Assembly: GCA_006503475.1 (NCBI GenBank)
Contig: RSEH01000072.1
Coordinates: 1-64,000 of the forward strand
DNA from: Stentor roeselii
Lineage: Eukaryota > Ciliophora > Heterotrichea > Heterotrichida > Stentoridae
Direction of reading: 5' to 3'
Length of the DNA stretch: 64,000 nt
The translations under genes and the position numbers were made by a program. Below the pieces are notes generated by a model. The model saw only the letters and a list, made by a program, of their open reading frames with translations, made no database searches and was not told the origin of the DNA. Below, one piece after another: positions 18,063 through 60,908 of this stretch (positions are counted from its first letter, which is position 1; each line of letters opens with the position of its first letter).

Positions 18063-20327
18063 ATGGTGTCTGCTTTCTATCCAGATGAATTTTACCTCAA
18101 GCTGAAACAAGTTTGTGAAATGATCCTATCATCCCACACAAACTTTATAGTTTCTTCTATCGGAAAACAAAGTCTCGGCAAGAGTTATTTTTTAAACAAG
18201 ATCTTTGACTCAAGAATCCAGACAAAAGATGGAAAGCTGGTATCAAAAGGAACCCAATGCTTTGAATACGTGACTTTAAAGGACTTTCACTTACTTGACA
18301 TGGAAGGGTTAGAAAGTACCGAAAGTTGCACAGTAAGAGACGCATTCAACTTTTTTTCAATCATGTGAATTTCTGATTTGGTTTTGCTGCACATTTCACA
18401 CAGCGACCTTGAAAACAGAATGTTTATCAAAAAGTTTGCATTTTTGATTTATCAATGTTTTTCCCCTTGCAAGTCAACTTGCTATAGTTATAGATTGTAT
18501 CTGCCTAGAATTATTCTTTTAATCAAAGACCCTCGGTGGGAAGACGAAGAAGGTACTCGAGTCTGGAATAAATATCAAGAACTAGTCCAGAATTTTCAAA
18601 AAGAAATTCTTGATGAGGCTCAAGGTTTCACAAATGAACTGCTTGACATGCTGCTTGAAGCTGAACTGAAAAATGAAAAGGACAAGGAAAAACAACGAGA
18701 AATAGAAAACAAATACCAAGAGATTAAAAGCACAAGAATTGATTTTAAAATCGATGAATTCTTCCCAGTTTACTTCCAACAGACAGGCTTCGGCAGAAAC
18801 AAGCAAGTTGACTACTACAAATTAAAAGTAACTTCAAAATCATCAGAAATAAAAAAAAGCAAGTTCAAATTCCTTCTAAAAAGAATCCTTGCAGTAAAAA
18901 ACAAACCTTCTACAAATTTTGATGATCCTTTCTCCAACAACCAGAACTTCAGCGAGTTTCAAGGAATTGAAGGTTTTCATCAAATCATTGAAATCATGAG
19001 AACTCAGAAAGCCAAAGAAGAAAGCATTGTTTCAATTATCAGCAACATCTACATCGACATCAAAAACGACATATTCTTCAATCGAGACAACGTCGACCAG
19101 CTGAAAATCTTCATTTCAAAGTTCTACAAAATAAAGAAGTCCTTAGAAGAAATCATAAAAAGTGCCCATAAAAGTGTTGAGCTGAAAGAAGTCGGAAATT
19201 ACGTTAAAAGTTTTTTTTCCAATGATAAAAGCTCCTACCTGAGTGAAATCAAAGCGAAAACAGAAGAAACTTTTGATAAAATCATTGAAAAAAACGGTCT
19301 AAATGGCATTAAAGAAGAACTAACCAACTACTTCAGACTCATTTTAGTTAAAAGGTTCAACGAGATTTTTAGTCTTGACCCTAAAAAACCTGACAGCATT
19401 CTCTACGCAGCACTTTTTTCTATTTTGAACTTCAAAAAACAGAAAAAAATCAATGAACAACTGGAAAATATCTCAAAACAAATCCAGCTTTTCCAGTGTC
19501 TCTGGCTCTTCGACAAAAATTTCAAAAAAATATTAAAGCCGACCTTCACCAGAACTTTCAAATATTTCGACTGCATCATTGAATTAATGTCTCAGAACAT
19601 GAAACTGATCCAGATGAGTCTTTCGAAATTTAACAAAAAACTAGTTGACTTGCCTTGCAAAGTAATCGATTTATCGAAATTAAAACAAAATTTCACTAAT
19701 TTTTTTAACCCTTTTTCCGAATTCACTTTAATTACCAGTGATTGCTTTGAAGCGTTCAGTGATGGTTTAGAGAGAATCTCTAATTTGAAAATGGTCAGAA
19801 TTTCAAAAGATGATAGCTTGACAGTTCTAAATGATCATCAAAAGGTGGAAATTCTCGTCATTGAAAAAGCTTTACTGACTAAGTCGTTGATTTATTCGCT
19901 TTTTCCAAGTATTTCTGGACTACTTACTGGAATTATTTCGATTGGCGTTCGATGTGCGATTATTGCGGCTGCTGAAACTGCTGCTGCAGCCGCAGCTACT
20001 GCTGCGGCCACTGCCTGGATACCTATTGTCGGGTGGGTCATCTTTGGGGTCACTACTCTTGTTTCTTTGGGATGGTTCGGGTATACTGTGTACAAGTTGA
20101 AGAAACCTCGGGTGTTAAAGAAAACGTATTTGCCACCTGCTGATTATTTTATTAAAGATGCAGGATTTGTGCAGAAAGTTGTCAATGGAACTATTTCTGA
20201 GGAAAATTTCAATAAAAAGTTTGATAGACTTGAATATTATAGTGTGTTAAAAAAGGGCGAGGATGTGTTTTATTCAGCTTTTGCGAAAGTGATCATTGTT
20301 ATTTTGCTCGAAAAAAAGGTTTATTAG
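18063..20327 (+). CDS. Large GTPase of the GBP/VLIG-like class with C-terminal membrane hairpin; one in-frame UGA
   Basis: About 754 codons in one frame. The P-loop is GKQSLGKS (34-41), a G2-like KGTQ follows, and G3 is DMEG; LIKDP is a possible RD/G4-type motif. This is the set seen in dynamin-superfamily GBP/atlastin and VLIG-like GTPases. The middle is helical and Lys/Glu rich. Around residues 615-680 an Ala-rich hydrophobic segment (AAAATAAATAW) followed by WIPIVGWVIFGVTTLVSLGW should span or hairpin into a membrane, as in membrane-remodelling members. Codon 102 (18366-18368) is TGA between IM and ISDLVLLHI; both sides are clearly the same domain in the same frame, and no 15-16-nt intron can remove it. 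It may be read through, or be a nonsense change. ATG lies in TATAAATGG. Confidence 0.7.
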
Positions 20328-26455: not shown

Positions 26456-27595
26456 ATGCAAAGTAAATCTTACTTAGAATATCGTCTTATTTCCAAGAAA
26501 GGCGAAGGAACTTTCAGTGAAGTGCTAAAAGCTCAAAGCATTCGGACTGGAAAGTACGTTGCTATCAAGTGCATGAAAAACCATTTCAACAGCATTGAAC
26601 AAGTGAACAGCTTAAGAGAGATCCAAGCATTAAGAAGACTTTCTCCTCATCCACAGATAATCACTCTTCTCGAGATTCTTTAGTATTCTTTAAACAGCGA
26701 CGAACCAACAGGAAGACTTGCACTTGTCTTCGAATTGATGGAGCTAAACCTTTACGAGTGGATAAAAGGTCGTCGTCATTTCCTTCCAGAGGCGAAGGTA
26801 AAGTCTTACATTTACCAGCTATTAAAATCAATTGACCACCTTCACCGAAACGGGATTTTCCATCGCGACATCAAACCAGAAAACGTTTTAATCAGTGACG
26901 ATACTTTAAAACTCGCAGATTTCGGATCTTGTAAAGGAGTTTACTCGAAACAACCCTACACAGAATACATCTCAACTCGTTGGTACCGCCCGCCTGAGTG
27001 TCTTTTAACAGACGGGTACTATGACTATAAAATGGACATCTGGGGAGTCGGATGCGTTTTCTTTGAAGTCATGGCACTTTTTCCCTTGTTTCCTGGAAAT
27101 AATGAACTGGACCAGGTGCATCGCATTCATAAAGTCCTTGGAACGCCTGATGCTTCAGTCTTGGCCGAGTTGGAAAAAAAAGCTACTCATATGAAATTCA
27201 ATTTTCCGCCTGTTGAAGGGACTGGCTTTGAACGACATGTCATGCATGTCTCCGCTGCTGGAAGGGATTTGATTGGAAAGATGCTTGCTTATAAATGTGA
27301 TGATAGGATTTCTGCGAGACAGGCCTTGAAACATGTTTATTTTAAGGAATTCGCTTTGGTGGATAAACCTTTGAGGGTCTTTCCTTCACCGGTTGGGGTC
27401 ACTGATGATAGTGCTGGGGAAGATGAAAAAACTGATTTGGTTTTACCTGTTATTAAAACTTCTAAGAGGAGTGAAGGGAATTTGAAAATGGTCAAAAGTT
27501 ATAAAACGTTTAGCAATAAGATTCCGAGTATTACAAAGAAAATTGTGCTGGAAAATAGGAAAATTAATTTATCGCCTGTTAAAAAAACTTTATAG
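26456..27595 (+). CDS. MOK: MOK-type CMGC protein kinase (one 15-nt intron)
   Basis: Two exons, 26456-26682 and 26698-27595, give 374 aa. Features in order: glycine loop KGEGTFSEV, VAIK lysine, catalytic HRDIKPEN, DFG as DFGSCK, the TEY activation motif, STRWYRPPECLLT, and DIWGVGCVFFE. The TEY followed by ISTRWYRPPECL and the LFPGNNELDQ segment match MOK/MAK-family kinases, which act in cilia and length control in other eukaryotes. The intron restores the aC-b4 region: without splicing the frame hits TAG at 26681-26683; spliced, it reads EILYDEPTGRLALVFE. A ~60-residue basic tail follows the kinase. The gene ends 4 bp from the stop of the convergent EF-hand gene. Confidence 0.93.
26683..26697 (+). 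other. 15-nt intron in the MOK-type kinase
   Basis: GTATTCTTTAAACAG. Its removal eliminates the in-frame TAG and reconstitutes a conserved kinase segment. Position 10 is A, as in the other 15-nt introns here. Confidence 0.93.
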
Positions 27596-29235: not shown

Positions 29236-29307
29236 AGCACCAAAGAATCTCCAAAAAAAACCCAATTTCCATTAATCCATCAAAAATAATCACCAGTTGA
29301 AATAAAA

Positions 29308-30336
29308 ATGGGCTGCTGCAATTCAACAAACAATTTTTCCCCAGATCAACTAGACCAGAAAATCCAAGAATCAATAAAATCAGGTAACTCAAAAGCATTA
29401 TCCTATTACATTTCCTTAAAATCCAAGCTTCCAGGAGAGTCATTTGACATCAACACAACGAAACTTCAAGTTTCCGATTCCCTAAAAATGACGATTCCAG
29501 GTCTCTGCCTTTTAGAAGGAAGTTCTTTGCTGCTCAAGTCCTTGATCGACACCTGCCGAGTAGACTTCGAAGCTTTGGAGTCTTCTTTATCAGAAGTAGG
29601 AACTTCGACACTTGCCGTAATTTGCGAGATCAACAGTCTTTACCTCTTCGAAATTTACTGTCAGGCCTTCGTAAAACTCAAGAAAAACGCGAATTTTGTC
29701 GACTTTCCCTCAGCGAAATCGTGTTTTTTCTCTAAAAAAGAAGGAATTCTCGCAGATTTCGCATCTGAATACCCTGATGCAGAGTTAAGTCCTGTTCACA
29801 TCGCGTGTCTTTTGGGGAACTTGACGGTTTTAAAAGCGATTTCCAATTTTTCAAAGTCTCTTTCAAGTGTTCCAAATGATTTGAATTTGAATTATGTTGA
29901 AAGGGTTCATGGATTTAATTGTGCATTACTCGCTTGCAAGTCAGGAAATTACAACACGATAAAATTTTTGTTTAACTCTTGCAAAGCGGATTTCAATCAT
30001 TTGAATGCAGCTGATGAAAACTCTTTGCAGGTCTTGTTTGCCTCGGCTAAGACTAAGTCTTGTCCTGAACTTTATAATTGTTTGATTTATTTGGTTGATA
30101 AGGTCAAAGTCGATATTTCTCATAATTATGAAGATGTACTTGTTTATTGTGATGCTTTTAAAACTGCGGATTATTTTATTAAGAAGTTGGAAGAAATTGG
30201 AATTCAGGTTGATAGAGAATTTTTAAAGAAAAAATATGGAATGTTTAGGCAGAATACTTATGGAAGCTTCGCGGAAAGATATGCGGATTTGAGAAATCAG
30301 ATGAATGATGAGCCGGAGTCGCCGAAGGAGGAGTAA
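29308..30336 (+). CDS. N-myristoylated ankyrin-like protein A
   Basis: A 342-aa protein starting MGCCNSTN. Gly2 followed by Cys3/Cys4 is a strong N-myristoylation plus palmitoylation signal, so membrane attachment is likely. Ankyrin-like helical pairs appear at SPVHIACLLGNLTVLKAIS and NCALLACKSGNYNTIKFLF, with a further pair downstream. It is a diverged paralogue of the gene at 30895-31857: both share the MGC head, a C-terminal segment (YFIKKLEEIGIQVDRE versus YFEEKFRNIGILVDRK) and the order of repeats. The two are convergent, separated by a tandem repeat array. Ends at TAA after an acidic tail. Partner unknown. Confidence 0.78.
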   Translation: MGCCNSTNNFSPDQLDQKIQESIKSGNSKALSYYISLKSKLPGESFDINTTKLQVSDSLKMTIPGLCLLEGSSLLLKSLIDTCRVDFEALESSLSEVGTSTLAVICEINSLYLFEIYCQAFVKLKKNANFVDFPSAKSCFFSKKEGILADFASEYPDAELSPVHIACLLGNLTVLKAISNFSKSLSSVPNDLNLNYVERVHGFNCALLACKSGNYNTIKFLFNSCKADFNHLNAADENSLQVLFASAKTKSCPELYNCLIYLVDKVKVDISHNYEDVLVYCDAFKTADYFIKKLEEIGIQVDREFLKKKYGMFRQNTYGSFAERYADLRNQMNDEPESPKEE

Positions 30337-30894: not shown

Positions 30895-31857
30895 TTAATT
30901 ACGATTCCTCAAAGAATTCATGACATAAGTACCAACCAAACTAGGATTATCCTCTCCACACAACATCTGAAACACCTCATTTTCACAATTTTCCGCCTTG
31001 CAATACCCAAGCTGTTCTTTCCTATCAACTAAAATTCCAATATTCCTGAACTTTTCCTCAAAATACTCTAAAAGTTCTCCTTGAGCGACATCAAAAATCT
31101 CTTTAGCCTGAAGAGTATAATCAAGTTTCGCCTTTTCCACTAAAAACTTGACACATTCCTTAAACCCGTAGTTGTTTTTCTCATGAAAGCCAATCAAACA
31201 AATCAAAATCGCGCCTTGTCCAAAGCGATTTTTTTCGAGGAAGTCAGAAGGTCGCACCTGATGAAAAAATTGGATTAAAGGAAGGATTCCTTCTCGACAA
31301 GCGATCAAAGCACAGTTTTCACCGTTTTCGTCTTTTGCGGCGAAGTTGAATTCTTCGAAAAAGCACTTGGTTGAGTATTGATAGTGAATAATTGTTAATA
31401 TGTCTAACATACCTTTCCTAGTCGCGATTTGTACTGATGAGGAAGGGTTTTTTAAGGATTTTTCTGGTGGACGGCTTTTTAGGTACTCCTCGAAAAAAAC
31501 GTGGAATAGAGTCACGTAGCCCTTTGCCAGGACCAAGTCAAGAGGTTTTATCTGAAATTCACTGAAATCTTCAGTCATTTTCTGGAAACTGCATCCTTGG
31601 CTTATCAAGAACTTAAAAGCTCTCGGTTTTCCTTTCACCACTGAGTAGCTCAGAGGACTTAAACGAAAGGATTTGAAGTGAATCGCTTTTTCTTCGAAGA
31701 TATTTGATGATTTTGAGTGAAGTTTCTGGAAAAGAACTTGGATTTTACTGAGCTTTTGCTCGTCTTCTGCCTCGATTGACTCAATAAGACGTGAGGAAAG
31801 GGTTTTCGAGATTGAATCAAGTCTATCTTGGTCTGGTACTGAGAAAAAGCATCCCAT
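30895..31857 (-). CDS. N-myristoylated ankyrin-like protein B
   Basis: A 320-aa protein starting MGCFFSVPDQ, again with an MGC acylation head. Ankyrin-like units include SPLSYSVVKGKPRAFKFLI, KPLDLVLAKGYVTLFHVFF and NCALIACREGILPLIQFFH. It is the inverted paralogue of protein A and shares its C-terminal motif. The start lies about 470 bp from the divergent FCP1-like gene. Likely a membrane-tethered scaffold; no enzymatic motif. Confidence 0.78.
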   Translation of the reverse strand: MGCFFSVPDQDRLDSISKTLSSRLIESIEAEDEQKLSKIQVLFQKLHSKSSNIFEEKAIHFKSFRLSPLSYSVVKGKPRAFKFLISQGCSFQKMTEDFSEFQIKPLDLVLAKGYVTLFHVFFEEYLKSRPPEKSLKNPSSSVQIATRKGMLDILTIIHYQYSTKCFFEEFNFAAKDENGENCALIACREGILPLIQFFHQVRPSDFLEKNRFGQGAILICLIGFHEKNNYGFKECVKFLVEKAKLDYTLQAKEIFDVAQGELLEYFEEKFRNIGILVDRKEQLGYCKAENCENEVFQMLCGEDNPSLVGTYVMNSLRNRN

Positions 31858-35870: not shown

Positions 35871-37730
35871 TTAATCATCCCAGGTCTTTTTTTTAATTTC
35901 CACCGGTAAATTTCTCTCAAATAGTAAATTTTTCTCACAAGACTTTTCCAAATCACGAAGTGAAGTTAAGGCTACTTGATTAGTAATCTGCCTTTTATAT
36001 GAAATAATAAGAGTTCCGTTCATAAGTTCAGCTGTTGGATTCATGTGGTCGAATTCTTTAGGAACAGTGAAATTCACGCAGAGATCTTTGTGAAACTTTG
36101 AAGTATTTCGGGTAAGCCTTGATTTATTCTTCTCGCCCTTTGCACTGACAGTTGTGGAATAGTTTGTACAACTTATTAGAATATTTTCGAATGATATCCC
36201 TGGAACATCGATGTTTATAATGAATTCATCATCGTCTAAAAGCATTCCGATGTTTCTTTTAGAAGTTTCTTCAGTTGTAAGCCAGCTGAAATTTCGGAAT
36301 TTTATTTGTTCTAATGAAATGTAACTTTTGAAACTAACTTTAGATAATTCAGGCTCTTCATCGTCTTGTCTGGTTAATTTGTTTATTTCAGTTTCCGCTC
36401 CGATCAAATCTTCTAAAATATTTGCCATTTGAAGCTTAAAATTCTTGACTTTTTTCCCAATCATTTCATAAACAAGAACATTTTTGATGTACTCTATAGA
36501 GAAAAGATTGTATTCTTTACCGAACTTGTAGTTATTATTGACTAAACCCACATGTCTGAAGTTTGAATTTGGGCAGAAGATAGGAATATTTTTGGATTTT
36601 AGTTCATTTTCTACTGTAATTGTAACAAGTTTTGACTGGTAGTGGTTATTAAAGTCTTCTCCATATAGTTCTATCACTTGCTTTGTCCAAGCTTCATTAA
36701 GTTCATTTTCGTCATACACTTCTTTAAAATTATGTACTATAATGAATTTCTTTTTCTTATATTCTTCTTTTTTTGAGAACTGAACCAGAAGCTTTTGTTC
36801 ATGAATATTAAAGTTATTAACCACGAAAATAATTGTATTACTCAAACCAGTTACAACATTGCTCATAACCAAATCCTGTAGTTCCTCAACATCAAAGTCA
36901 ATGCCCGAGAAATTAGCCGCTCTATGAATGCCAGGAGTATCAATACTTAAAAGTTTCACTCCTTGAATTTCAACATTTCTAAACTTAACACAATCCGTAG
37001 GAAATTTTTTTCCAAATCCAAAAACAATTCCAGATAATTTTGAAAGTAAAAAAGTTTTCCCAGTTTGACTTCCTCCAATCATACAAAAAGTGCTTTGAAT
37101 TCTCAGATCATTAGTAAACTTGTTGATATCTCCTCGAATAAGCCAGTCATTTTCATCTTGACAAGAAATCCTTTCGCCTTGAGGAATAAGAAACTCGAGA
37201 TCAAAGAAAGGTTTAAATTCAGGAGGAAAGATAAGAGCAAGGTTTTCATTTCCCCAGGGCTCGTCTTTGAATTTTTCTGAGTTTTCTTTGATGTCTTTTA
37301 ATATCTGCTCATATTTTCTTGATTTAGAAATTTCAGAATTTGCTGAATTTAGAAGTTCAGTTAAGCCTTTTATTTCGTTTGACTTGTCGATTATTGTTGT
37401 TTTGTAGGATTCTATTGAACTGAAAATAGAATTTTCTTCGTTTTGAGTGCAACCTAAAGCTTTTTCGATTCTATCACGAAGATCGGCGAATTGTTGTAAT
37501 TGGGTTTCTAAGGATTCAGCTTTTTGGATTGTTTCTTGTAAGTCTTGATTGAGCTTTTGGTTGTTTTCTATGAGGGATTTTAGTTCTGATTCTAAGCGAA
37601 TTAGGTCATTTTCCTTGTTGGTTACTGTTTGCTCTAGTTGAGTCACTTTTTCTGATAGTTCACTTTTTTCTTTATCAAGTTGGTTTATACGGTCTGTTAG
37701 ACCAGCATTTTGCAATTGAAGCTCCTCCAT
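35871..37730 (-). CDS. Coiled coil - P-loop GTPase - alpha-crystallin fusion protein, copy 1
   Basis: A 619-aa protein. Residues 1-150 form a long coiled coil. The G domain (about 175-430) has P-loop GGSQTGKT (219-226), G3 DTPG (264-267) and HNFK (333-336) where G4 NKxD is expected; the hydrophobic strand LSNTIIFVVNNFN precedes it. Residues about 499-581 match an alpha-crystallin/Hsp20 fold: DEFIINIDVPG (first strands), FTVPKEFDHMNPTAEL and the signature A-x-x-x-N-G-x-L as AELMNGTLIISYK. A 40-residue basic tail follows. The combination of a GTPase with a small-heat-shock domain is not one I know. It is the first of four tandem minus-strand paralogues, with TATAAATGG at the start. Biochemical role unknown; GTP-driven assembly coupled to client binding is an inference. 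Confidence 0.8.
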   Translation of the reverse strand: MEELQLQNAGLTDRINQLDKEKSELSEKVTQLEQTVTNKENDLIRLESELKSLIENNQKLNQDLQETIQKAESLETQLQQFADLRDRIEKALGCTQNEENSIFSSIESYKTTIIDKSNEIKGLTELLNSANSEISKSRKYEQILKDIKENSEKFKDEPWGNENLALIFPPEFKPFFDLEFLIPQGERISCQDENDWLIRGDINKFTNDLRIQSTFCMIGGSQTGKTFLLSKLSGIVFGFGKKFPTDCVKFRNVEIQGVKLLSIDTPGIHRAANFSGIDFDVEELQDLVMSNVVTGLSNTIIFVVNNFNIHEQKLLVQFSKKEEYKKKKFIIVHNFKEVYDENELNEAWTKQVIELYGEDFNNHYQSKLVTITVENELKSKNIPIFCPNSNFRHVGLVNNNYKFGKEYNLFSIEYIKNVLVYEMIGKKVKNFKLQMANILEDLIGAETEINKLTRQDDEEPELSKVSFKSYISLEQIKFRNFSWLTTEETSKRNIGMLLDDDEFIINIDVPGISFENILISCTNYSTTVSAKGEKNKSRLTRNTSKFHKDLCVNFTVPKEFDHMNPTAELMNGTLIISYKRQITNQVALTSLRDLEKSCEKNLLFERNLPVEIKKKTWDD

Positions 37731-37886
37731 TTATATTCATGTTTTAAAATATAGACACCAAAAGATGTCTATAGTGAAAAGTTTGAATAAGGGAAAAATA
37801 TTAGGATGGTAGTGATTTTATGATTTCGGAAATTTTTGAATGAGATTTGCTAAAACTACCTAAAATTTCCTAAAATTCCTTAATTT

Positions 37887-39461
37887 CTAACTTTTCCTCT
37901 CTATTTCTCTAGCAGTTTGAAAAGGACTTTCACTTTCCGGCTCAATCCTTAAACTTGGTGTATCAACAAGCGATTCATTTTCAGATTTAAACTGCGAAAT
38001 CTCAACAGTCTCTTGTAAAAAATATTCAAGCATCAGTACTCCATTCCTAAAACCAAAAGTCGGATTCAAATGATTAAATCTTTTCGGTACTTTAAATTTG
38101 ATATTAACCTTATTAAACCTTTTCCCCTTCTTACTCGAAATCTGATGTCCATCAAATTTTCTCTCAGAGAAAATTTTCGTATATTTATTCGAGCATCTAA
38201 TCCTAAGACTTTCCTGAAGATTTCCAGGCATATCAAAGCAAATTCTAAAAAACTTTTCATCCATAAACAAGTCATTTTCCCTGTATTTTTGATCAGCATT
38301 TAAAAACCAGAAATAATTCCTGAACTTTATTTCCTCAGCTGAAGTTCCATTCAAATCAATTTTCCAAAGACCTTGATTTTCTTCTTGACTTTTTAATGAC
38401 AACTTAACTCGACTTCCAATCAAAAGTTCCAAATTCTTTGAAAGTTTTTTAATTAACTTTTTTGGAGATAATCTTGTTGAAAATTCCATGAGATCCCTGA
38501 TATACTTAAAAGAAGACAAATTGTAAACTTTGCCAACTTTACAGTTGTTGTTCATTAAACAGACATGAAAGAAGTTATTCCTTTCGTAAAAGAAAATTGA
38601 TTGTTTTACAGAATTTCCTGAAATAATAGTCTCGATGACTCGTTTAAACTTCTTATCATTTCCTTTTTCATTGTAAATTTCAAGAGCTTGTTCTTTGAAA
38701 GAGGTTTCTAGTTCTTTTATATCAAAAATGTCTTTAAAATTGTGAACTATTATAAAAGTTTTTTTTATGAATTGAGGATGTTCTGAGATTTTTTTTAAGA
38801 ATTTTTGGTCGAAAATCGTGAAATTATTGACGAGAATTATTATTATGCTGCTCATTGTTATTGTAAAGTTCTTGGAAAATAAGTCTTTTAATTTACTGTT
38901 TTCGTAGTCGAATGGGTTGAATTGGTATGGCTTGAAGTACCCTGGAGTATCGATTGAAAGGTAGTTTATTCCATTTATTTCAATTTCTTGAAATTTTAAG
39001 TTTTTTGTTGGATGCTTTCTTCCGGATTTTAATGGAAATTCAGAGATTTTTGATAAGAGGAATGTTTTGCCTGTTTGGTATTGTCCTATTATTGAAAAAA
39101 TTCTGTCGATTTCGTTGGTTTCTGTGAATAGAGTCGTGTTTCCAGAGATAGTCCAATTATCACCATCTTCATTATTAAGATCAGGACCTTCAGGGATTTT
39201 TAACTCGAAAAACGGTCTTAAATCCTCATCATCTTGATAATCCTTTGAAATTTCCTTATCAAATTCTAAAAATCTTTCTTTAAATTCTTCAATTTCAATG
39301 ACTAAATTTTCATTTTCAACTCTTAAAGAATTATTTTCAACTTTCAAAGAATCATTTTCAACTTTTAAAGAATTATTTTGAATGGATAAAGAATTGATTT
39401 CATTCCCAAGTTTTTTCTTTTCTTCATTCCATTGATTTTTTTCTTGGTCGTGGTGATCCAT
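37887..39461 (-). CDS. Coiled coil - P-loop GTPase - alpha-crystallin fusion protein, copy 2
   Basis: A 524-aa protein with the same layout as its neighbour but a shorter coiled coil (residues 1-75) built from near-exact heptads (NSLKVEN). P-loop GQYQTGKT (126-133), G3 DTPG (about 171-174) and G4-position HNFK are present. The crystallin domain (about 398-480) reads FRICFDMPG, FKVPKRFNHLNPTFGF and FRNGVLMLEYF; the N-G-x-L signature is intact. Ends with an acidic Ser/Glu tail. ATG in TATAAATGG; a 157-bp gap separates it from copy 1. Confidence 0.8.
   Translation of the reverse strand: MDHHDQEKNQWNEEKKKLGNEINSLSIQNNSLKVENDSLKVENNSLRVENENLVIEIEEFKERFLEFDKEISKDYQDDEDLRPFFELKIPEGPDLNNEDGDNWTISGNTTLFTETNEIDRIFSIIGQYQTGKTFLLSKISEFPLKSGRKHPTKNLKFQEIEINGINYLSIDTPGYFKPYQFNPFDYENSKLKDLFSKNFTITMSSIIIILVNNFTIFDQKFLKKISEHPQFIKKTFIIVHNFKDIFDIKELETSFKEQALEIYNEKGNDKKFKRVIETIISGNSVKQSIFFYERNNFFHVCLMNNNCKVGKVYNLSSFKYIRDLMEFSTRLSPKKLIKKLSKNLELLIGSRVKLSLKSQEENQGLWKIDLNGTSAEEIKFRNYFWFLNADQKYRENDLFMDEKFFRICFDMPGNLQESLRIRCSNKYTKIFSERKFDGHQISSKKGKRFNKVNIKFKVPKRFNHLNPTFGFRNGVLMLEYFLQETVEISQFKSENESLVDTPSLRIEPESESPFQTAREIERKS
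39312..39395. repeat. 21-bp coding minisatellite in copy 2 coiled coil
   Basis: Four 21-bp units, 39312-39332, 39333-39353, 39354-39374 and 39375-39395, each encoding one heptad (sense N-x-S-L-K-V-E). The fourth unit is diverged. Heptad-sized DNA repeats suggest recent growth of the coiled coil. Confidence 0.9.
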
Positions 39462-39654
39462 TTATATCCATTTTATCTAAGTTGTAGACTAAATATAGAC
39501 AGTCTACAAAGGAACAAAAATGAATAAAAGACTTAAATTAAATTTCAAGCAAGTTGAAGAGTAATAAATATTTCTTTTGTTTCTTTTATAAAAAAACCAG
39601 GATTTTTTCAATACAATCAAAAATTCAATCATAGAAAAACTCAATTATCCTAAA

Positions 39655-41692
39655 TTATTCTAAGTTAACTTCAATTGACTTTTCTTTAAAAGGTTTATAA
39701 ACGATGTCCAATCTGCCGTTGTTTAATTTTGCTTCAGGTTCAAGATGATTGAATGTTTTTGGGATTTTATATTGAAGAACTGATTTTCCGAATCTAAGCT
39801 TGGATTCTGTCCGATATTGAAAATCGTTTTCAATTCTAGAAGTTGTTACACTAGTAAACCCATTAAAACATTTGATCTCGATACCTTGAGATACTCCAGG
39901 AACATCTATACTAACAGTTAAATTCTTATCAGAAATCTTCATATTCATGAACTTTTTACTTGAATCAGAAGATTTACACCAATTATGATTCAAAAAATTC
40001 AAAACCTCAAAAGATTCTTTAAAATTCATTAAAACCATTCCTGAATCTCTTATCTCGACTTCTCTTCCAGTACATTTTTTCACTTTTTTGCAAAAGAAAC
40101 TCTGAAAATCATTGATAATTTTTCCAGTATTTTAAAAAATCAGGTATTTTTTAATATATTCTAAAGCGAATCTATTATATTCATATCCTTTCTGATAACT
40201 ATCATTGATAAGTGCAATATGTGTGATTACTCTCTTAAAGCAAGAATTTTTCTTGATAAAAACATGAATTTTTTTAGATATTTCTTTATTTCCAATAATC
40301 ATTTTCTGGATTTTTTCAAGTAATCTCTGAGAAATCTCTCCATAAAGCTTAAAGATTTCTTTTCTCAAAATTTCAGGTAATTGTTCCAGGTCACTTAAAT
40401 CTTTCAAGTTATGAACAATCAAAAAGTTCTTTGAAGACATTTCTGCTCTGTTGAAACTTTCCAAAATCATTTTCTGTTCAAATATATTAAATTTGTTAAC
40501 TACTAAAATAATTGTTCTGCTAAGACTTGTGGTGATGTTCGTTATTAAATTGTCTTTCAACGTCTTTTCTTTGAAGTTGAGGTCGGAAAAGCTGAGTGGT
40601 TGGAAAAGTCCTGGAGTGTCTATTGATACATAGTTGTTGTCTCCTATTTCAAAATAGTTTAATTCGATGTTTGATGTTGGGAATGTTTTGAAGTGGTTTT
40701 TTAATGAGTTTGAAAGTTTGAAGAGTAAGAAGGTTTTTCCACATTGAGAACTGCCTAGAATTCCGAAGGTTTTTTAGATTTCTAGGTCTTTTAAGAAGAT
40801 TGAGATGTTATCTGATGAGTGCCAGATTTCTTTGTCTATTAGAATCTTGAAGTGGGATGATGGGAAGTTTTGGAGAATATTTTGATTAGGTTTTGTTGGT
40901 TCTTCGAATTTAAAGTTTGTAATTTCATCAGTTTTTTCACTTTCATTTATTTTTCCAGAATCAATTTTAATAGCTTCTTCATTCTCACAATCTTTAAAGG
41001 ATTTAATGTATTGTTTATTATCTTTTATCTGTGATTTTAATTTATTTAGTTCTATAATTATAGTTTCTTCTTTATCTGTATTCAATTCTCCCTTTTTTTC
41101 CAGTTCGGTATTTAAATTTTTTAATATTTTTTTCTAAATTTTGTTTCTCGATTAAAAATTCAGCAACGATTCCACAAAACTTTTCAGTGGATTCCAGAAA
41201 TTCAGTAAAAATACTTTCCAAATAGTTAATTCTTGAATTTTTATAGTAAATTTCTTCATTATGCAAATTTAACTGGGACTGTAGCTGATTATTAATCATT
41301 TTAATTTGATCGTTCAATTGTAATAATGTCTTTTCGTGAAGCAATTTAAATTTTTCAAGAGTCTTTACATTCTCTTGAAGTTGCTTCTTTTTTTCATATT
41401 GTATTTCCTTACTTTTTATAAATATTTCTTGCCCTGAGACTATCGTGCTTGAAGATATGCTAGCAGAACTTGTATTCACTAATGATGCCTTGTATTGCAC
41501 CTTTTTTCTCAAGGGTAAGTCCTTGATACATTGAATATCAGTTCCGCAGTTAAAGCAAGTGATTATATTATCATTTCGGTCTATTAGAATTAGATGATTA
41601 TCGCAGACTATATGATAACGAGAATAATTCACGTAATGTGATACTTTCGACTTGCATCCCTCAATCAGGCAATATTTTTTGCAGCTTTTCAT
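39655..41692 (-). pseudogene. Disabled copy 3 of the GTPase - alpha-crystallin family, with Cys/His head
   Basis: Full-length relative of the copy at 42049-44067, plus an N-terminal module with Cys4, Cys8, Cys13, His32 and a CFNC pair that resembles a zinc-binding B-box. A coiled coil follows, then P-loop GSSQCGKT, DTPG, HNLK and an intact crystallin domain (SIDVPG, YKIPKTFNHLEPEAKL, NNGRLDIVY). It is interrupted by a frame change in an A/T run near 41105, a TAA at 40774-40776 (a Ser in copy 4) and a TAA at 40132-40134 (a Glu in copy 4). No 15-16-nt intron removes any of these. Because the rest of the sequence is well preserved, inactivation looks recent; an assembly error at three places is less likely. 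ATG in TATAAATG. Confidence 0.75.
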
Positions 41693-42048
41693 TTATACCT
41701 GATATTTAACTCAACAAAAATGAAAGCAGATATAAGATAATTAACCATGACTCTAATACTCATTAGTTTTTCTAAAGTTTTATCTTCTGGGAAGTAATAA
41801 AAATAATCTTATTTCAAGATCACACAGAACATTAACAATTCCTCAAGATCTTCCTAATACCTTTATTAAAAGACACAACAATCAATTCTCCTATAGATAA
41901 AAAATTCTTAAAAATAACATCTCAAATCGAAATAATAAAATTATTCCTAAAATCGATTATTTTAACACTATGTTTCTTACCCATTTTCAATAAAACTCCT
42001 TACATTCAATCCATAAAATTTACTCTCAACTAAAATTCCTAAATTCTA
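41693..42048. other. Intergenic gap within the GTPase cluster
   Basis: 356 bp of AT-rich sequence between copies 3 and 4; nothing recognised. It should contain the copy-3 promoter. Confidence 0.6.
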
Positions 42049-44067
42049 CTAAAACTCAATAATTCTAACTTTTTCTAATTTTTCTTTGAAAGTTTCATAA
42101 ACAATTTCTAGCCTTCCATTCTTAAGTTCAGCTTTAGGTTCCAAATGATTGAATTCCTTCGGTATTTTAAATTCAAGAGTAGATTCCCCAAACCTAATCT
42201 TCGAGTCGCTTTTTAATTGAAATCCATCATCAGGTCTTAAAGTAGTAAGTCTCGTAAGACCATTTAAGCAGATGATGTTAATATCATCAGATACTCCAGG
42301 TAAATCGAAAGAAAGAAATAATTTTCCATCACTGATCTTCATATCAACGAACTTTTTAATCATATCAGAAGACCTCTTCCAATTTCTATTCATAAAACTC
42401 AAAAAATCAAAATACTTTCTGAAATTCATAAAAATCTTTTCATCTCCAAACTCAATATCTTCCCCAGTGCATTTTTTCACTTTTTTGCAAAGAAAACTTT
42501 TAAAATCATTGATCGGTTTTCCAGTATTTTCATAAACCAGGTATTTTTTAATGAATTCAAAAACAAAAGAATTATATTCTTTTCCTTGTTGATAATTATC
42601 ATTAATAAGAGCGACATGAGTAAGTCCTTTCTTAAAGTAAGGATTTTTTTTAAAAAAAAAAGAGATTTTTTTAGAGAGTTCTTGATTTTTAACCATCATT
42701 TTCTGCATTTTTTCAAGTGACCTCTGAGAAATATTCTCTTCATAAAGCCCTTGAATCTCTTTTTTCCAGATTCCCGGCAACTCCTCAGGTTCAAACAAAT
42801 CTTTAAAATTATGAACAATCAAAAAATTCTTTGTTGATTTTGCAGTTCTACTTAAGCAGTCTAAAATCATTTTCTGCTCAAATAACCCGAAATTATTAAC
42901 GACTAAAATAATTGTTCTGCTTAGACTTGAAACAAGATTTATCATCAGCTGGTCTTTTAATGTTTTTTCTTTGAATTTCAGATCAGAAAAGGAAACTGGC
43001 TGGAAAAGACCTGCGGAGTCTATTGATAAAAAGTTATTGTTGTTTAGTTCGAAGTGGTCGAATTGAAGACCTTTTGTTGGGCAGGTCTTTCCTAACTTTT
43101 GGATTGAGTTTGAAAGTTTGGAGAGTAGGAAAGTTTTTCCGCATTGAGAACTGCCGAGAATTCCGAAGGTTTTAGAGATTTCTATGTCTTTTAGGAAAGT
43201 TGATATCGTGTCTGAAAAATTCCAGGTAGTGTTGGTGAAGGTTATTTCGAAATGAGAGGAGTTATTGTTTTCGTATATTGTGAGGTAATCTTTGTAGTCG
43301 ATTTTTAGTTTTTCTAGTTTCCATGGAGAGGTTTGAAGGAGGTTTTCACTTTCTTTGATTTTTTCAAGCATGTTATCATGTCGTTCAAATTTCTGATTTT
43401 TCGTTGATAATTCGAGAAATTCAGATTGAAGACTTTGAATTTCACTCAAAAGATCATCCTCATGAACTGTTTTGCATCCTAATAGATTTTTGAGATTTTC
43501 TTTAAAGGATTCATATTTTTTGTTAATTTCTTCTGCCGCTTTTAAATACTCACTTATTTTAATTTGTTCTTGTTCATTCTCGTTTCGAAGGTCAATGCAA
43601 TGGTTTTCTAATGATTGGTTTTTTTCTTTGATCTTTTGATTTTCCTTGAATACTTTATTGAACTGATCATTTAGATTTTTTTTAATCTTTTCAAAATTAT
43701 GTTCTTCATCATTCATCATACTTATTTGATTTTTTAATGCTAGTTTTTCATTTTCTAATTTTTGTTTTTCTTCATTAAGTTTTTCTATATTTGATTCAAG
43801 TGCTCTTTTATCCTCTTCAAGTTTTTTTATATTATCTAAGTGAGACAATATCATTCCTTCATACTTAAATTTATTTTCTTTTGAAAGTTTTTCAAAATTT
43901 TCCTTAAGATTTGATATCTCTGAATTTAAATTCTTAATAATTTCATCTCGTTTTCTAAGTTCGATTTCTGATTGATCTACTTTTGTTTCCTGCAATACTT
44001 GTATTTCCAGAGAACTTGAATATGAATCTTCACTCACTTTAGACTCAACAGATATATTGGACTCCAT
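42049..44067 (-). CDS. Coiled coil - P-loop GTPase - alpha-crystallin fusion protein, copy 4
   Basis: A 672-aa protein, the longest copy. Residues about 30-250 are coiled coil. The P-loop is GSSQCGKT (305-312); G3 is DSAG rather than DTPG (about 350), which loses a Pro and could affect GTP hydrolysis; HNFK stands at the G4 position. The crystallin domain near 575-660 has LSFDLPG, FKIPKEFNHLEPKAEL and KNGRLEIVYE. It is closest to the disabled copy 3 (both have SSQCGKTFLL). TATAAATGG at the start. All four copies are on the minus strand, consistent with tandem duplication. Confidence 0.8.
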   Translation of the reverse strand: MESNISVESKVSEDSYSSSLEIQVLQETKVDQSEIELRKRDEIIKNLNSEISNLKENFEKLSKENKFKYEGMILSHLDNIKKLEEDKRALESNIEKLNEEKQKLENEKLALKNQISMMNDEEHNFEKIKKNLNDQFNKVFKENQKIKEKNQSLENHCIDLRNENEQEQIKISEYLKAAEEINKKYESFKENLKNLLGCKTVHEDDLLSEIQSLQSEFLELSTKNQKFERHDNMLEKIKESENLLQTSPWKLEKLKIDYKDYLTIYENNNSSHFEITFTNTTWNFSDTISTFLKDIEISKTFGILGSSQCGKTFLLSKLSNSIQKLGKTCPTKGLQFDHFELNNNNFLSIDSAGLFQPVSFSDLKFKEKTLKDQLMINLVSSLSRTIILVVNNFGLFEQKMILDCLSRTAKSTKNFLIVHNFKDLFEPEELPGIWKKEIQGLYEENISQRSLEKMQKMMVKNQELSKKISFFFKKNPYFKKGLTHVALINDNYQQGKEYNSFVFEFIKKYLVYENTGKPINDFKSFLCKKVKKCTGEDIEFGDEKIFMNFRKYFDFLSFMNRNWKRSSDMIKKFVDMKISDGKLFLSFDLPGVSDDINIICLNGLTRLTTLRPDDGFQLKSDSKIRFGESTLEFKIPKEFNHLEPKAELKNGRLEIVYETFKEKLEKVRIIEF

Positions 44068-56183: not shown

Positions 56184-59100
56184 TCATTTCCTTTTATATT
56201 TCTTGTACTCATTCTCCAACTCGACCTTCTTTTTGCGATGTTTTGCAACTTCAAGTTTAGCATATTCCTGATAGTCTTTCAAAGACTCAATATCAGTTTT
56301 ACTCGAAACAAGTTGAATCCTTAAATTAATAAGTTTCTGCATTTCACTCATATAAACCGCTTTAGCCTCAACATTATCATAAATCATTCCATCCAGGAGG
56401 TCTTCCAAGCCACTGTCCATTGTTTCCAACGAAAAAATGCTATCCTTATAAAACCCTAAATTGAGATACGCAATAATTTCAGCTTGTTTTTCAATCGGCT
56501 GATTCATGAACAAGCACTTCAACCAATGACTATTCCTCGTAAGGCCCATCCAAAGAATAAACCTAAAATCCTTAACTTCCTCAACCATTCCAAGTAAAGT
56601 CGTTATCGGGTCTTTCGATTTCCGAAGTTCTCTTAAGACCCCTGAATGTTCATCCATAACAGAAGAAACTAAAATCAACTTTTCAGAAGTAGTCATTGTC
56701 GCCCATTTAGTGTCGAAATTTTCAGTTAATTTCATGTCAAAAGTATGATTTTCAAATGAAATCGAATTCCAAACAGCCACTCGCTCGATATGGTCAAAGT
56801 GCTCTTTACCCATCCAAAGTTCCAGTTTTTCATTATCTGAGTTCGCATTCCAGATCTTTCCCATGGTATTTAAAAGTTGAACTCTATCAGGGATTTCTCC
56901 ACCTTCAATAAAAGCTTTTTCAATTGCTCTGATAACATATTCACGGCTGATAATAGCGAGTGACCTCCAGATTTTAAGTCTTTCTGAAATATTTGACTGT
57001 TTCCATAGCTCTACATTGAGATAAGTAATTTCAGAGAGTTTTGCCTCTGCAGTGATTTTTTGATTTTTTTCTTTACTGCTTGACATCATCTTAAGTCCGA
57101 AAAGACTGACTTTTTTGTCACTTTTTTCATTTAAGATGTTTTCAGCGACTTTCATCCAAAATGCCGGATTTGTTGGGTCTTGCATGGCTTCCTCGACATG
57201 GTAAATGTTATCGTCGAGGATTTTTTCATCATCAGGGCCGTCGTCGTCTTTGGACCTTTCGTTGTCTTCGTTGCGTTCTGGTTCGTCTAGGAAGACTTTT
57301 TTATTTCTTTTCGCGACGATGACGCTGATGATCTTGGCGAAAAAGCCGATGTCTTCTTCATCTGGATTAGAACCTTCGATTACAATTTCGAAGTGTGAAC
57401 CGATGATAGCGATGAACATGTTCAGAAGAATTAAGGAAAAGACTATCACAAGACTTACAAGGAACATTGTACCGAAGACTGGGTCTGCGGTGTAGATGTC
57501 TGAACTGTTGTACTCGCCGATCAGCATCAGGTAACAACTGATCAGGGATTCTTGAAGTGTGCTGAAGTTTCGAAGAGTATGGCCGAGTAACAGGTAACCC
57601 ATTAACATGTAGGCGAATAACACTATGGCGAACATTAACATGTAAAAGATTAGGTCTAGGGTTGCTGAGTCAAGGATATCAGTCAAAAGTGACAGTTTTT
57701 TGCTAAACTTATAAAATTGCAGCAAACGAATAAAAATAATCAAGCAGTTAAACGCAACAATTTGTTTATAAGAAATCAAAATCTGATCAATATCCGAGAA
57801 CTCAGTAAAATAATCATATTTGGAAGTATCTGCAACAGTAAAGTCCTTCATAAACTGATTCATAGAAAGTTGAAGAATCTGTGAAAGGTTCATAATCGAA
57901 AGAATAATCGAGCTGACATCAATGACATTAAAAGAGTCTCTTTTAAGATACCTCTGCATGGTTTGCAAAACATTAAAAAAAACTGTCAAAATCCATCGAA
58001 CAGCCGCTTTTAATCGAATTAAACTCTCCCTAATCATATCCGAGCATCCTTTTTCATTAGCCCCTCTTCCTACCAACTTAATTAAAACCCTTTCAAGAGC
58101 TTCAAATCCTTTTTGCTTTTCCTTGACCTCAGTCCTGACCTGTTTCCAGACCACAAGCCATTCCTTGAACTCAATGACGAAATAATAAACAGTGAACAAG
58201 AAGTAAATAATTTCAAGTATTCCTCTAATAGGCACCTTGTCCTTAAAGTAGTCTAAATCAATAGGTTGACAATAAAACTCCTGTGAAATACTGCCACTGA
58301 TTTCATGAGTGAATTTAATGTAGCTATAAGCGAAAAGGTTTAAATTTCCATTGTAAGTCACCCACTCGACGACTAAAGAACTTCCGTTGAACCCGAGGAC
58401 TTGGTCATGTTCCATCACTGTTAACTGCTCGATCATGTTAGTTGAAGTTCCCAAGTAAAACGGGTACCCGCCATATCTGTTAAAGGTCTGAGCAGACCCT
58501 GAAGAATAATACTGATAAAGTATCTTCGAGTTCTTTCCTCTATGAGTTATTTTATGATAATTCATATTTTCCATTTTAATCACATCTTTTATCACATCTT
58601 TCGAAAACTTGTTGGTATTTCCCTCTGGACTGTAAAATTGAAGAGTTATCCGTGCTCGCTCATCACCTAAAAAAAAGTTATGGTCGAAAAGCGAGTCTCC
58701 TGATATCTTTGGAACGAAAAGTTCTTTCAGATAACTGAAAACTAACTTTTCAGTTGAAACATCAGATAATGTCAAATCGTTCCCGAAGGTCGAAGTCACA
58801 AAGGACTCAGAGTTAAGTTGATATATTCCATATGAGTCAGTAATTCTCAGCCGTAACAAGATCATCACAATGAAAACGACGATAAAAATAATGTAAATAA
58901 ACATCTGACAGACTAGGTTGTAATTATAATTCACAAGTTTTTGAAGTTGAGCGTTTTTTTTCTTTTTTAACTCGGCACGTTCGAGGATTTTTTCAAGAGT
59001 TGTTTTTATTTTTTGCATGTTTTGCTCGTGGGTGAGCATTGTGGGCTTGTTTAATGAACTCAGTTTGCCGAAGTTTGTTTTGAATATTTTTATGATGTCT

Positions 59101-60908
59101 ACTTTTGTACTTGCTATGAAAAGGGTTTCATACATTTTTAACTTTTCGTCAATGTCTTGCTTTTCGTCTTCTGTTAGAGAGTCTCGATTGATTTCTTGAA
59201 GTTCTTCGTATTTTATTGCGTCGATTTCTACACTTACCACTCGGAAAAAGATTAGGTTTAGTAAGGCTTGGAACCATTCTTCTGACTGCTCAGCTATCAT
59301 TTCGGCCTTGGCTTCTAAAATTAGTTGTCCCTGGGATTTGAGTCTTTCATAAGTACTCATCACAATAGCCAAGAACATATTAGTCAGCACCAAGAAAAAC
59401 ACCGTTAAAAAAACCAGCAGATAAACTGAGCTAATCGAGTCATTCACAACTTTCATATCATCCTTCAACTGCAACTGTCCTAAAGACATATCAAAAAGTG
59501 TCTGAAAAGTCCAGACCGAAGTTGAAAAGTTCAAAATTCTAAATCCAAACACAAGATTTCCCCAGAACACAAATCCAACAAGTAGAAATAAAGTGATCAT
59601 AATAAAGTTAATAATATCATTTTTCGCTCCAAGGATCGTATCAAACAGAATCCCAAAAGACGGAAACTTATACCTTAAAACAACAATCACTTTAAACGAT
59701 ATCAACAACGCAGCAAGAGCAGTCACCTGCACCAAAAGTCGAAAATCACGACAATAATCAGTAACTCCTGAAAAGTCCTCCTCATTCAGAATGGGAAGTT
59801 TAAACTTCCCAATATTCGCAAATACAGAAGTTCCAAATAAAATAAGAGAAACCATTGAAAGAACTACTGAGCAGATTTCAATATACTCATGCCAGACAAG
59901 GTCAAGTTTTCGTTTAATGAAAAGTGTTTTGCATGTCCTGAGCATGTTTTGAGCGAGTTTGAATATCTGAAGAGAAAAGCCTAAAGAGTAGATGATGAAG
60001 AGGATGAAGATAACCAACGAGTCACTTTTAATTGTTTCGAACTTTTCGATGAAAGAAGCGAGGGTTTCAGCTAAGGCAGAAATAGTTCCAGCGGGGTTGA
60101 GAGTAAAGGTCTGGTAATAGTAAAGGGTGCACATCGTGTTTGGGTTATGGTAAAGATACTCAATAGACAAAGTCCCGAAATTCGCTTTATTCAGCCAATA
60201 ACCTTCAGCTTCTCTCCAAGTCTGCAAAATCGGGTCTTGTTCAATAAACGGCGAATAGTAAATAACATAACCTTCATCATTCGCAAAGCCTTTTTTATAA
60301 TCCCAAATCTTACTCATCCCTTTATCTTCATACCCGTCTTTTCCTTCAGGAGCTATAAGAGGGTCTTTTTTCCTCCATTTAATTTTTTTGTTGGTCATTT
60401 CGTCTTCATTCTTAATCAACTCGCTGTTTTTTAACATCAGTCGAACTCCCAAGAAATAATTATAATCGCCCATTGAATGGTTCGTTGCAGGTAAAGCGAT
60501 TCTTCTAATATAACACCCAAGATCATCAAGTGACCGAATATCTGCAAAGCGCTTTTGAGAATTTTCGTCCCAGTAAGAGTTTTCATAGGCGGACTCGATG
60601 ACGACTGCCATGTTCGAGACGTCTTCGACTCTATTGATGTAAGACGCCAGGATGATGAATAAAAAAGAGACCAAGACTGACAAGTAAACTCCTTTCACGT
60701 TTACTGGGATCTCTTGAAGTGATTTCTCGATGTGAGGCATGTTGTTTTGAATTTTTTGGTTTATCATGTCCCATTCTTCTTGCTTCAGTTCTGGGATTTC
60801 GACTCCTGCCTCGTTTTTTAAAAGCTCGTTGTCCTCTTCGCAACGGTTTTTGCTATCTTTTGGATTTCTGTCTCTTTTGAACTCTGATGAACTTTTGGTT
60901 TCTTCCAT
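56184..60908 (-). CDS. Two complete polycystin (TRPP) channel units in one polypeptide
   Basis: A 1574-aa protein. Unit 1: S1 span GVYLSVLVSFLFIILASY (~73-92), polycystin extracellular (TOP) domain (~93-290), S2-S6 and a pore segment ending in LGQ at 476-478 and S6 LTNMFLAIVMSTY. Unit 2: S1 at ~667-690, a second TOP domain (~695-895), S2-S6 and a pore with IGEY at 1130-1133 and S6 LILLNMFIAIIGSHFEI. The fusion of two six-span polycystin repeats would give a dimer with four repeats, as in two-pore channels. The two pore sequences differ. The ~400-residue tail (1180-1574) is acidic then helical. The stop is TGA 16 bp before the next gene's ATG; the frame beyond is open for over 60 codons, so UGA must terminate here. 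Start AATAAATGG, with AACACCCTCT 40 bp upstream. Confidence 0.88.
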   Translation of the reverse strand: MEETKSSSEFKRDRNPKDSKNRCEEDNELLKNEAGVEIPELKQEEWDMINQKIQNNMPHIEKSLQEIPVNVKGVYLSVLVSFLFIILASYINRVEDVSNMAVVIESAYENSYWDENSQKRFADIRSLDDLGCYIRRIALPATNHSMGDYNYFLGVRLMLKNSELIKNEDEMTNKKIKWRKKDPLIAPEGKDGYEDKGMSKIWDYKKGFANDEGYVIYYSPFIEQDPILQTWREAEGYWLNKANFGTLSIEYLYHNPNTMCTLYYYQTFTLNPAGTISALAETLASFIEKFETIKSDSLVIFILFIIYSLGFSLQIFKLAQNMLRTCKTLFIKRKLDLVWHEYIEICSVVLSMVSLILFGTSVFANIGKFKLPILNEEDFSGVTDYCRDFRLLVQVTALAALLISFKVIVVLRYKFPSFGILFDTILGAKNDIINFIMITLFLLVGFVFWGNLVFGFRILNFSTSVWTFQTLFDMSLGQLQLKDDMKVVNDSISSVYLLVFLTVFFLVLTNMFLAIVMSTYERLKSQGQLILEAKAEMIAEQSEEWFQALLNLIFFRVVSVEIDAIKYEELQEINRDSLTEDEKQDIDEKLKMYETLFIASTKVDIIKIFKTNFGKLSSLNKPTMLTHEQNMQKIKTTLEKILERAELKKKKNAQLQKLVNYNYNLVCQMFIYIIFIVVFIVMILLRLRITDSYGIYQLNSESFVTSTFGNDLTLSDVSTEKLVFSYLKELFVPKISGDSLFDHNFFLGDERARITLQFYSPEGNTNKFSKDVIKDVIKMENMNYHKITHRGKNSKILYQYYSSGSAQTFNRYGGYPFYLGTSTNMIEQLTVMEHDQVLGFNGSSLVVEWVTYNGNLNLFAYSYIKFTHEISGSISQEFYCQPIDLDYFKDKVPIRGILEIIYFLFTVYYFVIEFKEWLVVWKQVRTEVKEKQKGFEALERVLIKLVGRGANEKGCSDMIRESLIRLKAAVRWILTVFFNVLQTMQRYLKRDSFNVIDVSSIILSIMNLSQILQLSMNQFMKDFTVADTSKYDYFTEFSDIDQILISYKQIVAFNCLIIFIRLLQFYKFSKKLSLLTDILDSATLDLIFYMLMFAIVLFAYMLMGYLLLGHTLRNFSTLQESLISCYLMLIGEYNSSDIYTADPVFGTMFLVSLVIVFSLILLNMFIAIIGSHFEIVIEGSNPDEEDIGFFAKIISVIVAKRNKKVFLDEPERNEDNERSKDDDGPDDEKILDDNIYHVEEAMQDPTNPAFWMKVAENILNEKSDKKVSLFGLKMMSSSKEKNQKITAEAKLSEITYLNVELWKQSNISERLKIWRSLAIISREYVIRAIEKAFIEGGEIPDRVQLLNTMGKIWNANSDNEKLELWMGKEHFDHIERVAVWNSISFENHTFDMKLTENFDTKWATMTTSEKLILVSSVMDEHSGVLRELRKSKDPITTLLGMVEEVKDFRFILWMGLTRNSHWLKCLFMNQPIEKQAEIIAYLNLGFYKDSIFSLETMDSGLEDLLDGMIYDNVEAKAVYMSEMQKLINLRIQLVSSKTDIESLKDYQEYAKLEVAKHRKKKVELENEYKKYKRK

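Follow-up and report, generated by a model that had tools for sequence, protein, structure and literature searches.

Four homologous genes stand in tandem on the minus strand at positions 35871–44067 of a 64,000-nucleotide stretch of Stentor roeselii DNA, hereafter the window (contig RSEH01000072.1 of assembly GCA_006503475.1, positions 1–64,000, forward strand). Copies 1, 2 and 4 are intact and copy 3 is broken, and each encodes a GTPase-like (G) domain followed by a C-terminal alpha-crystallin (HSP20) domain. The gene order, the homology of the copies, the identity of both domains, the G1 and G3 motifs and a modified G4 motif are established at the level of sequence. We favour, with a probability of about 0.42, the reading that these genes belong to a family of ciliate GTPase-like proteins with a coiled coil, three of them apparently working and one broken, which would act as GTP-regulated scaffolds or adaptors and use the alpha-crystallin domain as a binding or assembly module.

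Four tandem genes that share two domains

The intact copies are single open reading frames (ORFs): copy 1 at 35871–37730 (619 amino acids; coiled coil, G domain and alpha-crystallin domain), copy 2 at 37887–39461 (524 amino acids) and copy 4 at 42049–44067 (672 amino acids). Copy 3 extends from 39655 to about 41692. Both domains are common to each of the aligned pairs, namely copies 1 and 2 (35% identity over 418 amino acids), copies 1 and 4 (30% over 580) and copies 3 and 4 (58% over 443), and overall the identity between copies is about 25–64%, depending on the pair and segment. The coordinates, strand and motifs given in an earlier note on this DNA proved correct when the ORFs and motifs were read again, and the tandem duplication that it proposed is borne out by four adjoining minus-strand homologues that are 30–58% identical in the aligned pairs. 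Its statement that all four copies carry the three parts is an overstatement, because copy 3 is broken.

A tblastn search of the window with all cluster pieces gave no additional copy at E ≤ 0.01. When profiles made from the four copies were run against a background of 511 six-frame stretches of at least 40 amino acids from the window, plus their reversals, only the cluster's own pieces clearly exceeded background; the next-best background E-values were 0.011 for the G profile (a reversed stretch) and 0.25 for the C-terminal profile. This comparison is partly circular, because the profiles were made from these same pieces.

We considered whether the fusion could have arisen falsely, through misassembly or by reading adjacent genes as a single one. 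The fragmentation of copy 3 would fit such an origin, but three copies that are 30–35% identical carry both domains in an uninterrupted single frame, and an assembly echo is ruled out because the intact copies have diverged to that extent. We therefore regard an artefact as extremely improbable. The ratio of non-synonymous to synonymous substitution rates (dN/dS) for copies 3 and 4 is about 0.25 for the G domain and about 0.37 for the C-terminal part, and in the G domain synonymous sites are saturated for copies 1 and 2 and for copies 1 and 4. The values for copies 3 and 4 fit long constraint on the protein with a recent break in copy 3, although a pairwise figure does not tell which copy was constrained.

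The Pfam HSP20 profile matched the C-terminal segment of all four copies (E ≤ 0.1; best 5e-8, copy 1). With whole ORFs as queries, the match was 3.8e-7 for copy 1 (30.6 bits, above the curated cut-off of 20.8), and 5.6e-4 for copy 2 and 0.016 for the copy 3 piece (20.4 and 15.7 bits, both below it). In whole copy 4 HSP20 was not reported at E ≤ 1, and it was seen only when the C-terminal segment was scanned alone. The domain lies at 35982–36236 in copy 1 (residues 499–583), at 38016–38276 in copy 2 (residues 396–482) and, with approximate limits taken from the segment match (E ≤ 0.1) and the alignment, at 42097–42360 in copy 4. As expected for this domain, D-x-P-G and N-G-x-L are kept in all four segments. 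A profile of the four segments matched in the PDB a chloroplast 25.3-kDa heat-shock protein, Hsp21 and Sulfolobus Hsp20 at 3.3e-6 to 2e-5 (the two chloroplast proteins at 3.3e-6 to 1.5e-5), and fission-yeast Hsp16 at 0.0021. In NCBIfam every match was weak and below the cut-off; archaeal Hsp14 matched at 2.6e-6 and 6.7e-5, and the remaining matches were weaker than the best of these. The PHROGs matches were to Hsp20, at 0.03 for copy 1, and to two families whose function is unknown, at 0.018 and 0.098.

A predicted structure of copy 2, built from five alignment rows, was poor overall, with a mean predicted local distance difference test score (pLDDT) of 49.2. Residues 396–482 of this model form seven strands (pLDDT 40–81 by 10-residue blocks), and Foldseek returned 107 PDB matches at E ≤ 0.001, and each of the 50 listed is a small heat-shock or alpha-crystallin protein, with template modelling scores (TM-scores) by target of 0.48–0.75. 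The Hsp20-like assignment, originally made by eye, is thus supported by the profile in all four segments and by the fold matches of copy 2, where the check for a C-terminal alpha-crystallin sandwich was run. Small heat-shock proteins use [I/V/L]-x-[I/V/L] triplets for plugging a neighbour's groove. Triplets of this form occur in all four C-terminal tails, a count made with no chance control and for a pattern that is common.

The GTPase-type assignment of the earlier note is upheld for the middle of the proteins, where Pfam MMR_HSR1 matched the G segment of all four copies (E ≤ 0.1; best 6.4e-7) and where G1 (GxxxxGKT) and G3 (SIDxxG) are present in every copy. In whole ORFs the match was 2.2e-6 for copy 1 and 7.2e-6 for copy 2 (28.2 and 26.5 bits, above the curated cut-off of 21.9), and 7.1e-4 for copy 4 (20.1 bits, just below it). 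The domain occupies, with approximate limits, 36471–37091 in copy 1 (GGSQTGKT, SIDTPG, VHNFKE), 38478–39107 in copy 2 (GQYQTGKT, SIDTPG, VHNFKD) and 42538–43176 in copy 4 (GSSQCGKT, SIDSAG, VHNFKD). A Pro-Thr pair is invariant between G1 and G3, at the expected place of the G2 Thr.

The canonical G4 motif, [NT]KxD, is found in none of the four copies, as its Lys is lost in all of them and replaced by Phe or Leu. The earlier note described HNFK or HNLK in place of NKxD; these letters are present, but the register N-[F/L]-K-[D/E], with only the Lys replaced, suits them better. In each intact copy the Asn of ‘HN’ (residues 334, 241 and 420 in copies 1, 2 and 4) is the last residue of the MMR_HSR1 match, aligned with position 112 of the 113 in the profile. 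In this register the Asn is kept in four of four copies, as is the acidic residue (three Asp, one Glu). Because the Lys is lost throughout, we call the domain GTPase-like and leave GTP specificity unclaimed. DxxG is followed by I in copy 1, by Y in copy 2 and by L in copies 3 and 4. In Ras this position holds the catalytic Gln, and where it is hydrophobic, GTP hydrolysis often depends on dimerisation of the GTPase or on a partner. Other families gave less: FeoB_N matched more weakly than MMR_HSR1 in Pfam, NCBIfam small_GTP was weak and below the cut-off (0.0025 and 0.0099), and the septin, dynamin, GBP, IRG and AIG1 families of Pfam gave no match to copies 1, 2 and 4 or the copy 3 pieces at E ≤ 1, or to the four G segments at E ≤ 0.1.

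A proposed GTP-regulated scaffold and its rivals

In the reading that we favour, the coiled coil would join at least two chains, the G domains would be stimulated on meeting within the assembly, and the alpha-crystallin domain would bind partners, clients or neighbouring copies, so that the GTP state would control the building and dismantling of the scaffold or adaptor. We infer that the proteins bind and hydrolyse GTP, oligomerise and bind partners, and that their role is in assembly rather than in heat-shock rescue. The earlier note had, likewise by inference, proposed a nucleotide-controlled, chaperone-like scaffold.

It had also placed a coiled coil in every copy, which is borne out for three of the four. 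Heptad periodicity is found in the region at 37281–37730 of copy 1 (residues 1–150, limits chosen; none of 300 shuffles as high), in that at 43348–43995 of copy 4 (residues 25–240, limits chosen; 16 of 300) and, with 7 of 300 shuffles as high, in the ORF that precedes copy 3. Copy 2 fails the same test, 168 of 300 shuffles being as high, and its coiled-coil hints are a predicted helix at residues 3–76 and a Pfam HALZ match of 5e-4, below the cut-off.

The failure of copy 2 is one of several points that weigh against a GTP-regulated scaffold. The replacement of Lys by Phe or Leu in G4 may weaken guanine binding, and no G5 motif was recognised by eye. The model of the copy 1 G part is poor (mean pLDDT 46.6), with no Foldseek match in the PDB at E ≤ 0.001 (best 5.9e-3). 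At E ≤ 10 there were 763 weak matches to it, and the 50 listed are Arf/Arl GTPases or complexes, including six rows whose titles name neither and which we take to contain them; the model is too poor to name the nearest GTPase family. The nucleotide-binding fold expected in the middle of the proteins is therefore supported by sequence, and by structure only weakly. Moreover, the G domain and linker occupy the place of the N-terminal arm of a small heat-shock protein, and the authors of work on Get3d report no evidence for oligomers formed via its alpha-crystallin domain (PMC10248533), so that a domain of this kind does not have to serve in assembly.

Get3d is an ArsA/Get3-type ATPase with an alpha-crystallin tail, described from land plants and photosynthetic bacteria (PMC10248533). 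The cluster proteins could be its analogues, GTP-gated holdases in which clients that are unfolding or bound to membranes are held by the alpha-crystallin domain, with the G domain setting the moment of release. The order of parts is shared, a P-loop nucleoside triphosphatase (NTPase) in front of an alpha-crystallin domain at the C-terminus (PMC10248533), and the conservation of D-x-P-G and N-G-x-L in all four copies would suit a holdase. However, client binding by Get3d is reported not to need the alpha-crystallin domain (PMC10248533). Furthermore, the NTPase here matches MMR_HSR1, with a weaker match to FeoB_N, and the tail matches the general HSP20 profile, unlike Get3d. Neither the ArsA/Get3 ATPase nor the ArsA_HSP20 family was reported for any copy (ORFs at E ≤ 1; segments at E ≤ 0.1), which places the cluster proteins outside the Get3d family by profile and counts against the analogy. 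We consider a holdase of this kind rather unlikely.

The tandem arrangement of diverging copies (about 25–64% identity), one of them broken, recalls the clusters of GBP, IRG and GIMAP genes of animals. It might point to a self-defence array in which the C-terminal domain recognises intracellular targets and the G domain drives their coating, and the window contains another GTPase-like gene, unrelated to the cluster and with a hydrophobic stretch close to its end (18063–20324), which could be read in the same way. Tandem duplication by itself is common, however, and no copy matched a GBP, IRG, AIG1, dynamin or septin family of Pfam. PADLOC gave no match for copies 1 and 2; for copy 4 it gave Mad8 at 7.8e-4 (residues 33–334 of the copy 4 segment against positions 19–169 of the 314 in the profile) and PDC-M16A at 0.054, both weak, and we do not take them as a defence assignment. 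A defensive role is, in our view, unlikely.

We hold it to be just as unlikely that the cluster encodes a structural family of the cortex or cilia, with a degenerate, non-hydrolysing G fold and with the alpha-crystallin domain as a protein–protein docking module, in the likeness of p23/CS-type domains. The loss of the G4 Lys in all four copies, the lack of a G5 recognisable by eye and the DSAG of copy 4 instead of DTPG would be in keeping with such degeneration, but the GKT of the P-loop, DxxG and the Asn and acidic residue of G4 are kept in all four.

The broken copy 3 and the surroundings of the cluster

Copy 3 consists of four open pieces on the minus strand, at 41075–41692, 40777–41133, 40135–40773 and 39658–40131, separated by two in-frame TAA codons and one frame change. 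One TAA (40774–40776) directly precedes the G domain (40135–40773, MMR_HSR1 segment match), and the other (40132–40134) separates the G domain from the C-terminal part, where the alpha-crystallin domain is at about 39691–39939 (HSP20 segment match). The frame changes within 41072–41133, where the open frames 41075–41692 and 40777–41133 overlap. The 41075–41692 ORF, assigned to copy 3 by position only, starts with a Cys/His-rich segment that is absent from the other copies, and continues as a coiled coil. This N-terminus is possibly zinc-binding; the ORF has no convincing Pfam match (best E 0.036), and its similarity to the Cys/His-rich ORF at 2196 is not above chance (E 0.84).

Stentor is reported to use the standard genetic code and to have introns of 15 and 16 bases, the branch A of the 15-base introns being mostly at position 10 (PMC9505925). 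We rejected the possibility that copy 3 is an intron-split gene, as none of its three breaks is overlapped by a GT...AG of 15 or 16 bases on the same strand, and that it is a recoded gene, as TAA terminates other long frames of the window, copy 1 included. The break may be real and recent or, alternatively, may be due to a sequencing fault. All three stop codons, TAA, TAG and TGA, terminate long frames of the window. An altered genetic code is not supported: TGA ends five long frames, which have one limit at 2196, 46931, 52045, 56187 and 61162, respectively, and the last four contain Pfam domains (the frame at 2196 was outside the scan).

Of the 17 gene starts checked, eight have the octamer TATAAATG at the presumed start codon, those of all four cluster genes included; over both strands the window contains it 13 times. 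The octamer may provide the context of the start codon or be an element of the core promoter beside the ATG.

The second GTPase-like gene, at 18063–20324 on the plus strand, has the P-loop GKQSLGKS, an MMR_HSR1 match of 3.9e-4 in its first 101 amino acids (just below the cut-off), an in-frame TGA at 18366–18368 and a hydrophobic, Ala-rich stretch near its C-terminus; it is not clearly of the same family as the cluster (E 0.09 with the profile of alignment A4). A protein kinase gene at 26456–27592 contains a 15-base GT...AG at 26683–26697 (+) with an A at position 10. This is a probable intron, since its removal restores a frame that looks conserved when read by eye; we take the kinase to be MAK/RCK-like. 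The intron and the TGA stops fit a Stentor-like heterotrich, and they point to Stentor or a near relative among the heterotrichs as the probable source of the window and support a ciliate origin. Two facing ankyrin-repeat genes, at 29305–30333 (+) and 30901–31857 (−), both start with MGC, as if for N-terminal acylation. A polycystin-type channel gene (56187–60908, −) adjoins a gene for a cyclic-nucleotide-binding ion channel (61162–63051, −).

Known systems and the place of the family

By profile and by fold, the C-terminal domain is that of small heat-shock proteins (HSP20), such as chloroplast Hsp21/25.3, archaeal Hsp14 and alphaB-crystallin, whereas here it forms the tail of a protein of 524–672 amino acids, behind a G domain. 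According to the Get3d paper, many small heat-shock proteins are seen as chaperones that work independently of ATP (PMC10248533). The G domain shares G1, a G2-like Thr, G3, a modified G4 and a hydrophobic residue after DxxG with Era/FeoB-type GTPases, and differs from them in the change of the G4 Lys to Phe or Leu, in the alpha-crystallin domain that follows it and, in most copies, in the coiled coil that precedes it. Era/FeoB-type GTPases belong to the TRAFAC class. Septins, too, are GTPases that have expanded in single ciliate lineages, Stentor included (PMC11238149). They differ from the cluster proteins, for which no septin Pfam match was found. We also know of no septin that carries an alpha-crystallin domain.

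Relatives were sought in IMG/VR and GTDB with short peptide patterns followed by confirmation with tblastn. No relative was confirmed in IMG/VR among the stretches that fitted the patterns (5 with copy 4, 14 with copy 1, 2 with copy 2, 198 with alignment A3 and 239 with A4), nor in GTDB genomes (183 with A3 and 113 with A4). Because these scans start from short patterns, distant relatives would escape them. Searches of phages with copy 4, and of plasmids with the G and alpha-crystallin part of copy 1, also gave no confirmed relative. In the open-access literature, no fusion of a GTPase to an alpha-crystallin domain appears among the matches listed, as judged from titles and the beginnings of abstracts. 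The earlier claim that no such family has been described is uncontradicted within that scope; eukaryote proteomes lay outside it, and the combination may already be present, undescribed, in eukaryote proteome or domain-architecture databases.

We put at even odds the proposal that the cluster represents an undescribed heterotrich family of GTP-switched alpha-crystallin proteins, and the first case of covalent GTPase control of a small heat-shock domain, independent of Get3d. If this is true, one could examine directly in this family whether the state of the nucleotide gates alpha-crystallin binding. Stentor is presented as a model of regeneration and morphogenesis (PMC9371601), and in this organism such proteins would be candidate GTP-controlled scaffolds.

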